From an uncultured SAR324 cluster bacterium (GTDB taxonomy: Bacteria > SAR324 > NAC60-12), in NCBI GenBank assembly GCA_902564345.1, contig CACFAY010000010.1, positions 1 through 39,697 on the forward strand: a stretch of 39,697 nt of DNA, written 5' to 3'. Shown one piece after another: positions 2,235 through 35,434 of this stretch (its first letter is position 1; every line of letters begins with the position of its first letter). The notes beneath the pieces were generated by a model that worked only from the letters and a program-made list of their open reading frames with translations, was not told the origin of the DNA and did no database searches. A program made the translations under genes and the position numbers.

Positions 2235-3458
2235 TTAATAAATTATAATTGCCTGTAACTGAGTAGTGTTTACTGTATAAGTTTTTCCAGCAAGATTTGA
2301 GCTCTGCCTTTCGTTTTTCTGAGTGAGTCCAAAGATGCACCACTGTGCAGCTGGATAATTCAGGCTTAGAGACCATGCACCATTTCGTGTCTTCGTCTTT
2401 CCGTCCAGCGAAGGATCTGCAACTTTGTCCTCAGTCTGAGAAAAATCATACTGGAGCCCTAGTGAAACGGGCGAAATTGAGTAGTCCAGCTTAAGCTTAC
2501 TTGTAATGGCTTTTGTGTCGTCATATTGACCATTTAAATCTGTATCTACATATGATGCATCAAAAGTCGTTTTCAACCCAAAAAAAGGAGTCACATATCC
2601 GATAAGTAGCGAAGTTGAATAACCACTGTCATTATTAGCTCCCTCTACTAGCTTTTTCTTTCTGTCAATCTGCCAGTTCCACGTTGTTTCCTTATCCAGT
2701 TCTTTCTTGGCTTTAATAGTATAGATGTTGTCCCTTGTGGCTCGTTTATATTTATCAGAGAGGCTGTCTCTTGGAATAGTTGATTCTGGGATATCTCGTG
2801 TTCCTGCTTCATTAGTCCCAACAGAAATAGTTAGGTTTCCTACCCAGCTTGAACTCTCTTCCCACTCAATACTTACCTGTTTAAACAATACTTCCTTGGG
2901 TTCAAACTGTCCATCATGATGTTGGTCTCCCATAAGAACTCCACGCAGATAAATACTGGAGTCGTCCATCACATCAAAACGGTAAGAAGGCACAAATAAA
3001 ATACTTGAAGAAAAAGCTTTAGATTTTGTAGCGTTGTCTTCGGCCTTCTCAATATTGTCACTAATCGTGCTTCCAATAATGCTGATTAGTTGAAAACTGT
3101 CTCCGAGCTTTGCCTTTCTGAGTAATTCCGGAGTTTCATATATCAGCCTAAGCGTTTTCTTAGCTTCTCCGTTCAGGGTTTTGACATATACTTCAAAGTT
3201 ATTAACGCCGAAGTTAAGCGTGTATGGAAATTTCAGCCAAATAAGACTCGCGTCCTTTGGAAATTTTTGTGATTTACCTCTTACAGTAACTTCCTTGATT
3301 GGACTGTAGGTACTGATCTGAATTTTGAGGACACCTATCTTCTCTTCTACTTTCTCTGGTGATAGACTAAATATCAGTATCTCAGCATCATCCTCTGCAT
3401 AAACAGCGAAAAGCGGGGTTAGCATGCACAAAATAATAATGAGCAGAACGGCTCTCAT
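2235..3458 (-). CDS. Outer-membrane beta-barrel protein
   Basis: The reading frame stays open upstream into pgi, but the start is placed at ATG 3458 because the protein then begins with a clean signal peptide (MRAVLLIIILCMLTPLFAVYA, cleavage before EDD). Mature residues about 25-120 look like an Ig/immunoglobulin-like periplasmic strand domain (ITTY-type pattern SPIKEVTVRG, YTLNFGVNNFEVYVKT). Residues about 150-407 alternate polar and hydrophobic residues in repeated strands (SSWVGNLTISVGTN, GYSTSLLIGYVTPFFGLKTTF, SLGLQYDFSQ) and the chain ends in a final strand QAIIIY with a terminal aromatic, the known signature for BAM-inserted barrels. An ATG 17 codons upstream (3509) has a GGAG close by and is an alternative start. 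It precedes the FecR-domain gene by 42 bp, so the two may act together at the cell surface. Confidence 0.6.
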   Translation of the reverse strand: MRAVLLIIILCMLTPLFAVYAEDDAEILIFSLSPEKVEEKIGVLKIQISTYSPIKEVTVRGKSQKFPKDASLIWLKFPYTLNFGVNNFEVYVKTLNGEAKKTLRLIYETPELLRKAKLGDSFQLISIIGSTISDNIEKAEDNATKSKAFSSSILFVPSYRFDVMDDSSIYLRGVLMGDQHHDGQFEPKEVLFKQVSIEWEESSSWVGNLTISVGTNEAGTRDIPESTIPRDSLSDKYKRATRDNIYTIKAKKELDKETTWNWQIDRKKKLVEGANNDSGYSTSLLIGYVTPFFGLKTTFDASYVDTDLNGQYDDTKAITSKLKLDYSISPVSLGLQYDFSQTEDKVADPSLDGKTKTRNGAWSLSLNYPAAQWCIFGLTQKNERQSSNLAGKTYTVNTTQLQAIIIY

Positions 3459-32395: not shown

Positions 32396-32612
32396 GAGGT
32401 TGAACCCCTCACTCATATCTCCCACCTTACATAGCAGACAACCTACTGGAATTATTGGATAAAAATTGAATCTTACCGGCAGGTGAAACTTCGTGTTACT
32501 TAATATAAACAGTAAATAGTTGACAAATAATTAACATTTTTATAGTTTATTTTTTCGTAAAAAATTTATTTTGAACTTTTTTTCTAAAAGATTAATCAGT
32601 ACTAAATGTTTT
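32396..32612. other. Gene-free stretch inside the inverted pair
   Basis: Just right of the left att-like site. The hairpin GAGGGGTTCAACCTCCCCTC (32390-32410, complement) resembles a T-arm with one extra loop base. No coding frame is seen beyond it up to the leader of the first Asp-box gene. Confidence 0.4.
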
Positions 32613-32742
32613 ATATTATTACTTATATAGAAACTGTTAGGAAGTTTAACATTTAGTTTTTGTTCTTATGTTGGATTGAATAGCTTTAATTTGAGACTTA
32701 TTATTCCTACTTCTTCAAAATTTTCTATATAAGTAATAATAT
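32613..32742 (+). promoter_or_regulatory. Inverted-repeat leader of first Asp-box lipoprotein gene
   Basis: A perfect 21-bp inverted repeat: the left arm at 32613-32633 (ends TTATATAGAAA) and the right arm at 32722-32742 (starts TTTCTATATAA) enclose 88 bp, and the right arm runs into the ATG at 32741. The enclosed stretch is related to that of the next paralog. It may be an RNA structure hiding the start codon or an invertible promoter segment. Confidence 0.6.
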
Positions 32743-33393
32743 GAAAAGTTTCTTGTCTTGGTTTGTCCTAATAGTCAGTATTGCATTAATTGTTTCATCA
32801 TGTGCTGACGATAGTTCTTCAAGTTCTTCTCCAAGTACTTCATCTTCTGAAGATTCCTCTGACAGTACTTCTGAAGATTCATCTGATAGTTCTTCCTCCT
32901 CCTCCTCAACGGGTTCAGGAGTATTCGTGGCAGTAGGTGCTTTAGGAAACATCGTGAGATCAACAGACAATGGATCATCTTTTTATAATGTAACTTATCC
33001 AACAGGAAATTTACTCTATGAAGTCGCATACGGAAACAATACATTTGTGGCAGTAGTAATTCAGGAAACATAGTTAGATCTAAGGACAATGGTTCATCTT
33101 TTGATAATGTGACCTCTCCTACTGGAACTTCTTTCATTGGAGTAGGATTCGGAAACAATACATTTGTGGCAGTAGGTGATTCAGGAAACATAGTTAGATC
33201 TACGGATAATGGATCCACGTGGGATAATGCAACTTCTCGAACAGGAAATTATTTCAGAGGATTAGGATTCGGAAACAATACATTTGTGGCAAGTGGTGAA
33301 TCAGGAAACATCGTGATATCAACTGATAATGGAACAACTTGGGATAATGTGACTTCTCCAACTGGAAATGTTTTCTGGGGTGTCGGATTCTAA
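32741..33393 (+). pseudogene. Asp-box repeat lipoprotein, frameshifted
   Basis: The signal peptide ends VSSC with Cys21, followed by an Asp/Ser linker, then four 40-residue (120-bp) repeats of type FVAVGxSGNIVRSTDNGSTWDN. S-x-D-x-G-x-T-W is the Asp-box of BNR/sialidase-like beta-propellers. One base is missing in repeat 2 near 33056 (GCAGTAGTAATTCAGG against GCAGTAGGTGATTCAGG in repeat 3), so the first frame stops at 33073 and the second resumes to 33393. Four blades are too few for a normal propeller. It may be a true pseudogene, a sequencing error or a slippage switch. Confidence 0.75.
32926..33390 (+). repeat. Four tandem 120-bp units
   Basis: Units start near 32926, 33046, 33165 and 33285. 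Each encodes one Asp-box blade, and neighbours are highly similar (for example ACATTTGTGGCAGTAG, GGATTCGGAAACAAT), so copy number could change by recombination. The last unit ends where the shared GGAAACAAT would begin, replaced by a stop. Confidence 0.85.
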
Positions 33394-33796
33394 TAATAAT
33401 CATTAACCTAAAAGAAATTTGAATTAGATCAAAGAATTATCCATTCGAAACAAAAACTAAAACGGGCAGTCACATGTTCAGTTTCAAATAATGATTCAAG
33501 TAATAGTGTGGCTGTATTTGTATACCAACAATAAAATATTTCTTACTTGAAAAGAATTGTATGAAAAATCTGAGAGCCTTTTATATATAGCGTTAACAGA
33601 TCTTACCCACCTTCAATTTCTTTTCAGTATTGCAAATATCTTATAAATGGCGATCAAAAATATTGCAATCATGAGAATCATTATGTAATTTTTACTTTGA
33701 ATGATGAAACTATAACTATAATTTGAGTTTATTTTATGGTAATGAAAGCAAAATTTAGAGATGGATAAAAAAGTTTTTTCAGGATTACTATTTGTT
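33394..33796. other. Gap between Asp-box paralogs
   Basis: About 400 bp. A 48-codon open stretch without a start codon ends near 33728 (includes YCKYLINGDQKYCNHENHY). It has a coding look but no family I know, and may be another gene fragment. Nothing else seen. Confidence 0.35.
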
Positions 33797-33905
33797 TTAG
33801 AAACTGTTGGGAAGATTAGTATTTAGTTGTTGTACGTTTATTTGTTGGATAGAAAAGTCTTAATTTGCGACTTTTTAGTTATTACTTCCTCATCATTTTC
33901 TAAAA
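33795..33905 (+). promoter_or_regulatory. Inverted-repeat leader of second Asp-box lipoprotein gene
   Basis: TTTTAGAAA (33795-33803) and TTTCTAAAA (33897-33905) bracket a segment related to 32634-32721. Compared with copy 1, the arm changed TATATAG to TTTTAG on the left and CTATATA to CTAAAA on the right, so pairing was kept. The ATG follows at 33913. Confidence 0.55.
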
Positions 33906-33912
33906 TAATAAT

Positions 33913-34968
33913 ATGAAACGAATATCCTATTGGCTCTTGCTGTTATTTAGTATTATATTAGTGCTCTCCTCATGCTCAGAAATTGAGGAAGATGCAACTG
34001 ATAACTCCACCACTACCACTACCACTACTTCTCACGATTCTACAGATAATTCCAGCAGCAGTACTGATAATTCCTCCGGATTATTTATTGCGGTTGGAGC
34101 CTCAGGTACATTACTAACTTCATCAGATGGGACAACATGGACTTCGCAAACTACCGTAACATCAAACAACCTAAGATCAGTCGCCTATGACGGAAGTAGT
34201 ACATTAGTGGCAGTGGGTTATTCTGGTACAATTATAACTTCTTCTGACGGAACAACATGGACTTCTAGGACTTCTGGAACTACCAATGATATTAATAATG
34301 TTTCATATGATTCTTCATCTGGAACCTTCGCTGCCGTAGGTGACAATGGAACTCTTCTAACCTCATCGGATGGGTCAACTTGGACTGATAAAACTTCTGG
34401 TTGTGGAATGATAGAAAATATTTGGGATATTGATTTATCTAATTCTAGTATCGGAGTAGCAGTAGGAGATAATGGTTCTATTTACACATCTGCAGACAAT
34501 GGAGACTCCTGCACAACCAGGACTTCAGGAAAAACAGTAGAATTCAATGAACTATACTATGGTAATAGTACTTTTGTAGCGCTTGGTGACAATGGTACCA
34601 TATTATCATCAACAGATGGAATAACTTGGACTGCTCGAACCTCTGGTACTACAGATAGTCTATATTCAGGTACCTACGGAAACAGTAATTATGTAGCAGT
34701 TGGTGCGTGGGGAAATCTTCTAACAGCTTCTGATGCAACTTCCACTTGGACTTCTAACAGAACCTACACACAAGATGCAACCTCTACAACCAGTGTTAAT
34801 ACTCATTTATACGGAATTGCATATGGTAATAGTATATGGGTAATGGTTGGACAAAATGGTAACATTTATAATACAAGTGATGGAACTATTTCAACTTCAA
34901 TGGTCGTTACTTCAAGGACTTCTGGAACAACAGAAAATTTAAGGAGAGTGTTCTACATAGATTTATAA
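33913..34968 (+). CDS. Asp-box (BNR-like) beta-propeller lipoprotein
   Basis: A 351-residue protein with a signal peptide ending LSSC at Cys21, a Thr/Ser/Asp linker containing a Thr run (codons ACC/ACT repeated), then seven Asp-box-like units: SSDGTTWTSQ, SSDGTTWTSR, SSDGSTWTDK, SADNGDSCTTR, STDGITWTAR, ASDATSTWTS, TSDGTISTS. Seven blades of about 40 residues would close a propeller, similar in form to Ycf48/HCF136-like and sialidase-fold proteins. No catalytic residues for glycosidase activity can be picked. A cell-surface binding role is inferred from the lipobox. It is paralogous to the frameshifted gene upstream. Confidence 0.75.
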   Translation: MKRISYWLLLLFSIILVLSSCSEIEEDATDNSTTTTTTTSHDSTDNSSSSTDNSSGLFIAVGASGTLLTSSDGTTWTSQTTVTSNNLRSVAYDGSSTLVAVGYSGTIITSSDGTTWTSRTSGTTNDINNVSYDSSSGTFAAVGDNGTLLTSSDGSTWTDKTSGCGMIENIWDIDLSNSSIGVAVGDNGSIYTSADNGDSCTTRTSGKTVEFNELYYGNSTFVALGDNGTILSSTDGITWTARTSGTTDSLYSGTYGNSNYVAVGAWGNLLTASDATSTWTSNRTYTQDATSTTSVNTHLYGIAYGNSIWVMVGQNGNIYNTSDGTISTSMVVTSRTSGTTENLRRVFYIDL

Positions 34969-35136: not shown

Positions 35137-35434
35137 AAAGACTTCTGGAACAACACTCCCTTTATATGGGTTAATCCATACAGAATAATTCTAATAAAAA
35201 CCAACCCTATATCATCCCCTGTAAGTAACTCCCACTTAATTCTTAACAGTCAGACAATCAACACAAAAATTATTCACGATTGGACATCCGTCTATTCGTG
35301 TGCGGATTTCTTGCTCTATAAGGATTCTCTTAAATCTTCTGGAATTTGAATTCTTAGAAACTTCATTTTTGGTGATTATAATCCATATTGACGGGAAATA
35401 TAGGATTACTTACTCCGGCAAATGTATATTATAA
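35137..35434. other. Mosaic non-coding stretch
   Basis: About 300 bp. It holds the Asp-box scrap at its left end and a 55-codon open stretch on the minus strand without a start codon (includes GCPIVNNFCVDC). Neither is assignable. Confidence 0.35.

Follow-up and report, generated by a model that had tools for sequence, protein, structure and literature searches.

The window analysed here, 39,697 nt of a contig of an uncultured SAR324 cluster bacterium (host genome 1.86 Mb, 51% complete, 136 contigs), contains two paralogous lipoprotein genes on the plus strand, the strand of all window features given below. The copy 1 gene, with BNR/YCF48-type repeats, was located at 32741..33395 from reading frames and ORFs and is frameshifted by 1 nt near 33052. 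Its first repeat lacks one nucleotide (33045-33060), which leaves a repeat spacing of 119 instead of 120 and breaks the frame; the break may indicate a pseudogene or a sequencing error. The copy 2 gene (33913..34968) encodes a protein of 351 aa with YCF48/BNR-like repeats (Pfam PF14870, E 6e-10), and its lipobox was identified by pattern.

Upstream of the copy 1 gene, arms at 32613..32633 and 32722..32742 form a perfect 21-bp inverted repeat (ATATTATTACTTATATAGAAA) around an 88-nt spacer. The 3' arm ends inside the start codon and covers the A and T of the ATG (32741), and the repeat extends imperfectly to 35 nt at 86%. The next-longest perfect repeat elsewhere in the window, with arms within 300 nt, was 13 bp, while the longest in simulated windows (n=20) did not exceed 14 bp and the longest in simulations with the local AT-rich composition (n=20) did not exceed 18 bp. 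The copy 1 repeat is far beyond chance. In copy 2, an outer stem is formed by TTTTAGAAA (33795..33803), which pairs with TTTCTAAAA (33897..33905). The leaders of copies 1 and 2 align end to end; their arms are therefore homologous and differ at matching places. An earlier note on this DNA had described both the perfect repeat reaching the ATG and its counterpart at the same places in copy 2, and the two descriptions were confirmed.

The two leaders belong to an element of about 140 nt found 5' of several different surface-lipoprotein genes of SAR324. A covariance model of the leader (R2), whose training set holds copies 1 and 2, matched these training members at 32605..32748 (copy 1; 108.9 bits, E 1.4e-17) and 33781..33920 (copy 2; 124.8 bits, E 1.4e-20). 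R2 matched seven copies, six of them training members, with top scores of 133 and 129 bits outside the window, and an eighth leader, matching in the core only, lies just 5' of a lipoprotein gene. The homology of the leaders is established by these computations. The host genome has four copies, three of them at lipoprotein starts; the third lies on contig C5, before a paralogous lipoprotein gene. A degenerate fourth copy, on the same contig (L063:634-777) and 3 kb from the intact one, has no lipoprotein gene behind it. Beyond the host, full copies were found in three other genomes of the same SAR324 genus, and some of the downstream genes are unrelated. The NIOZ-UU44 leader, which is closest to copy 1, precedes a BNR-type lipoprotein gene, the FRAM18_bin343 leader an Ig-like lipoprotein gene whose frame is broken downstream, and the AG-439-L22 leader a lipoprotein gene with no Pfam match. 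A further relative (G010) retains the loop core only (TTTAGTTTTTG...ATTGAATAGTTTGAATTT); a lipoprotein gene follows it directly, and the ribosome site there is an ordinary GGAG. The lipoprotein ATG stands at or just after the end of the leader in six full copies and one core-only copy.

The distribution of the element is narrow. Full copies are present in 4 of the 31 family genomes, and the leader-bearing related contigs carry the name SAR324 cluster bacteria. When 84,980 species genomes and the viral contigs were scanned by pattern and the model was then applied, only SAR324 loci were returned. A sequence-only core model added just the eighth copy, which had been used to build it, and its other matches had chance scores. 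Rfam gave no match at the gathering threshold for the window and six related loci and nothing of note by E-value, and nothing relevant was found in the literature searched on SAR324 lipoproteins or leader RNAs. If the leader is an RNA element, it would be the first sign, in the sources searched, of a shared RNA element controlling surface lipoproteins in this uncultured, widespread marine lineage. A mobile, MITE-like repeat, for which many scattered copies with no relation to genes would be expected, was rejected, since the genome has four copies and three of them are at lipoprotein starts; an integron attC site was rejected by reading, the conserved ends having no paired core sites. Weak matches in genome G012 were a fossil of the copy-1-type signal-peptide stretch, with neither leader nor open frame, between unrelated genes (L064:945-1030), and an unrelated long, near-perfect hairpin of the kind typical of small repeat elements (TTGTCATTCCAGCGAAAGCTGGAATCC...GGATTCCAGCTTTCGCTGGAATGACAA; L065:1620-1690). 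Another type of lipoprotein leader, roughly ACTGYAGTATTTYACTTTNGGYATNGARNAAAAGATGAAAAAG, precedes signal peptides in two genomes of the genus (L049:1954 and L100:3601, both minus strand).

RNAalifold gave one consensus structure for the leader, comprising a closing stem P1 (TTTCATATT with AATATGAAA, the start codon, and TTAG opposite CTAA), the inner stem P2, where TGTTnGGAAG pairs with CTTCYTCAACA, and a hairpin P3, with conserved loop sequences TTTAGTTnTTGT and TTTGAATTTG. In copy 1, the P2 strands of the consensus fold are AGGAAGT (32639..32645) and ACTTCTT (32709..32715), with G-U/A-U/G-C exchanges among homologues. Against whole-column shuffles, the six copies had an alifold z score of -6.9, and the set lacking copy 1 had -6.4; against local-block shuffles, the scores were -7.4 to -7.8 and -6.2 to -7.0, respectively. 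None of 200-300 shuffles was as good as the real leader alignment. The realigned leader scored z -7.0. As controls, 20 alignments built from repetitive coding stretches of the same genes scored 0 to +2 (plus strand) and -1.1 to +1.9 (minus strand). The coding strand folded at -29.9 kcal/mol (z -6.95) and the opposite strand at -9.9 kcal/mol (z -3.83). The folding of the leader RNA proposed in the earlier note as a check thus yielded a coding-strand consensus fold with z about -7, or about -6.5 without copy 1.

The pairing pattern also points to RNA. Paired columns contained 32 G-U cells and no A-C cells, whereas slid controls contained 10-18 A-C cells each; this count is supportive rather than decisive, because the structure was chosen with G-U pairs allowed. 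In alignment A3 (seven rows, fitted to the structure), the covariation counts are strong: six pairs change on both sides, a number reached by 2 of 500 shuffles (2-3 of 500 over the counts made). In alignment A2 (six rows, unfitted) there were two such pairs, which 54 of 500 shuffles also reached (31-54 of 500 over the counts made), and the covariation is suggestive. The earlier expectation of covariation in further homologues holds to the extent that the inner stems stay paired through G-C/G-U/A-U exchange; P2 showed no significant coevolution in the arm-swap test, and the outer arms showed none once copy 1 was left out. Single-sequence folding was unremarkable in three copies (z -0.5, 0.0 and -1.0), and the most divergent copy did not form the consensus helices. 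From this sample of seven to eight sequences, of one genus and from draft genomes, the element is a real RNA fold with good confidence, and the leader is most likely a structured 5' UTR.

The perfect match in copy 1 probably has a separate origin. The canonical 5' arm, TTTCATATTGTTTTAG, is present in three other copies, including the closest relative of copy 1, NIOZ-UU44 (83% in the core; gene start 90% alike), yet this relative has the AAGTAATAATATGAAAAG 3' arm (nearly) as in copy 1. The copy 1 5' arm reads TTTTATATTATTACTTATATAG, with 12 nt in place of the canonical GTTTTA and hence a 6-nt insertion, and these 12 nt are the exact reverse complement of its own 3' arm. The differences are clustered in one arm, and the reverse complement of the opposite arm accounts for every one of them, as expected of a template switch. 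A single event of this kind would account for the insertion and the substitutions together, and comparison with the relatives suggests that the 5' arm was probably rewritten from the 3' arm in this way. In the arm-swap test, the advantage of cognate outer arms had p=0.17 with six copies and p=0.85 without copy 1; the advantage was due to copy 1 alone. The earlier claim of compensating changes therefore stands as a description, but for the outer arms a history of successive selected changes is not supported. Copies 1 and 2, when compared, do not show stepwise compensation, although the fold itself is backed by the wider set.

Template-switch mutations have been documented as makers of perfect RNA stems (PMC8794818). 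As in those cases, a block of changes in one arm together with an insertion perfected the stem in what would be one step, with the inner segment unchanged; the documented cases are short rRNA or microRNA hairpins, whereas this stem joins arms separated by 88 nt in the leader of a bacterial mRNA. The locus would be a clean bacterial mRNA-leader example of how one template switch can mimic compensatory evolution, and it urges caution with covariation arguments drawn from two sequences. The same evidence, along with the frameshift in the copy 1 gene, favours an account of the whole locus by common descent plus one template switch, in which duplication or recombination carried the genes along together with their 5' regions and the copy 1 palindrome has no selected function. 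As an account of the whole, this is fairly unlikely. It suits copy 1 well and leaves the element unexplained, since removing copy 1 does not abolish the consensus fold and conservation is higher in the leader than in its flanks and the unrelated downstream genes.

The earlier note had also raised the possibility that the repeat is a site of DNA inversion. Repeats of suitable length do flank an intergenic segment upstream of a surface-protein gene, as in invertible phase-variation switches, for which inverted repeats of 10-20 nt with mismatches allowed have been reported (PMC5903667). In contrast to such switches, the inner segment had the same orientation in all eight related leaders, and the arms have not been kept as a common recombination site. 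Among the window ORFs scanned by Pfam, none was recognised as a site-specific recombinase, though one could sit elsewhere, as recombinases can act from other parts of the genome (PMC5903667). Promoter-like matches inside the segment were at chance level only, and the G-U bias at paired columns also speaks against inversion. From these comparisons inversion is unlikely, and an invertible segment is by a wide measure the least credible account of the locus.

In several copies, candidate promoters of the form TTGACA, 17 nt, TAnnnT were seen by eye some 50-80 nt 5' of the stem, so that the whole hairpin would be in the mRNA. In copy 1, a possible sigma-70-type promoter lies at 32520..32548 (TTGACA, 17 nt, TAGTTT, with a weak -10), and the corresponding place in two relatives reads TTGACA-17-TATCAT and TTGACA-17-TAGTAT; for copy 2, TATAAT at 33716..33721 is a possible -10, likewise by eye. 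A promoter scan gave these candidates no support and did not report the copy 1 TTGACA site; the number of sites it returned was that expected by chance. A promoter inside the leader was rejected, as neither the scan nor inspection by eye gave a conserved -35/-10 pair. No terminator-like site was found at the leader, which makes translational control likelier than transcriptional control.

In the consensus fold, the AUG lies in or beside the closing stem. At 5-15 C it was computed to be almost wholly paired in four of six copies (copies 1, 2, C5 and NIOZ-UU44) and partly occluded in the remaining two. The mean probability of an unpaired AUG was 0.09-0.10 in the leaders and 0.28-0.29 in 15 other lipoprotein genes (0.09 and 0.28, respectively, at 5 C), with the control genes overlapping the leaders in opening energy. 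Copy 1 stayed closed from 5 to 37 C, with about 18 kcal/mol needed to open it at 37 C, and copies 2 and C5 opened partially at 37 C only. The leader was rejected as an RNA thermometer, since opening was not found within the growth range, which is assumed to be roughly 2-15 C for the lineage. The G010 relative, with the loop core only and a GGAG site, shows that start-codon masking is not universal.

These results are best explained, at slightly better than even confidence, by a structured leader that controls the translation of certain surface-lipoprotein genes by masking the AUG. The conserved leader of about 140 nt would be transcribed with these genes in one SAR324 genus; its 5' strand would pair with the sequence that runs up to and across the start codon (P1), followed by P2 and P3, and the closed form would hide the AUG. 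The opening agent may be a ligand or a protein, or else a ribosome that reads a short upstream ORF. In copy 1, the template switch would have made the closing stem perfect and very stable, and the gene would probably be locked off. The predicted pairing suggests that the leader probably masks the start codon, and translational gating by it is about an even prospect; the transcription start, the translational control and the trigger are what we infer. The suggestion in the earlier note that a hairpin at the start codon could block translation is thus upheld for the anatomy, the conserved coding-strand fold and the pairing of the AUG in four of six copies, while the regulatory role is presumptive.

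Like translational riboswitches and RNA thermometers, the leader has a conserved fold 5' of a gene, and its closing stem takes in the start codon. It differs from them in its narrow distribution, with no Rfam match or known ligand, and in that its target genes share a lipoprotein signal rather than a pathway. A 5' stem that acts in mRNA stability or protein binding (an RNase shield, or an Hfq/CsrA-type site) and does not gate the start codon would fit the loop sequences, whose conservation is among the highest in the leader and which persist in the relative lacking the outer stem. Such a role is improbable, as in most copies the closing stem extends to the AUG, and the GGA motifs vary among copies.

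Opening by a ribosome would be a special case of AUG masking. In ermC-type translational attenuators, the strand masking the downstream start carries a short open frame, and the leader has a similar arrangement. A possible upstream ORF in copy 1 (32606..32656; peptide MFYIITYIETVRKFNI, then a stop) covers the 5' strand of the hairpin, and another is possible in copy 2 (33761..33826; MDKKVFSGLLFVLETVGKISI, then a stop); both are weak candidates, the former with no third-position bias. Ribosomes reading or stalling on such a frame would open the hairpin and free the lipoprotein start. Consistent with this, a frame of 14-21 codons is open in all seven full copies, in most cases beginning at an ATG in the 5' arm and ending at a conserved TTTAG, with the stop 80-88 nt before the lipoprotein ATG. 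The copy 1 insertion keeps the frame, and the relative without the outer stem is, by eye, also without the ORF. Against it, variable sites at codon positions 1, 2 and 3 numbered 10, 6 and 5, so that the peptide is under no visible constraint at the protein level. The start is TTG in one copy and a different ATG in another, and one copy has a moved stop; the ribosome-site spacing is poor, and an open frame so short is not rare by chance. The leader also differs from ermC-type attenuators in that its putative peptide is not conserved and no inducer is known. An ermC-like attenuator is accordingly quite doubtful on these counts; uORF-coupled riboswitches provide a comparison system (PMC11260477).

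The surroundings of the leader are mosaic. NIOZ-UU44 and FRAM18_bin343 have about 300 nt upstream (mostly 83-97%) and the leader in common, and their genes differ, whereas copy 1 and NIOZ-UU44 have the gene start and the leader in common but not the upstream region. The leader is conserved where the flanks and the downstream genes are not, and from these alignments it behaves as a module joined to different promoters and genes. A broader proposal is that it may be a portable switch module of a new structured-leader class, exchanged among unrelated SAR324 surface-lipoprotein genes, gating their translation, possibly opened by ribosomes, and lockable by one template switch; taken in all its parts, this is speculative and rather unlikely. 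Intergenic repeats CTAATTCTTCACAAGTCAGACA / CCTCCAAGTAACCCCCACT recur several times at another locus (L081:1190-1260, 1860-1940 and 3070-3180). The same repeat also precedes the NIOZ-UU44 leader (L055), and a related motif lies 3' of the window gene near 35210-35270.
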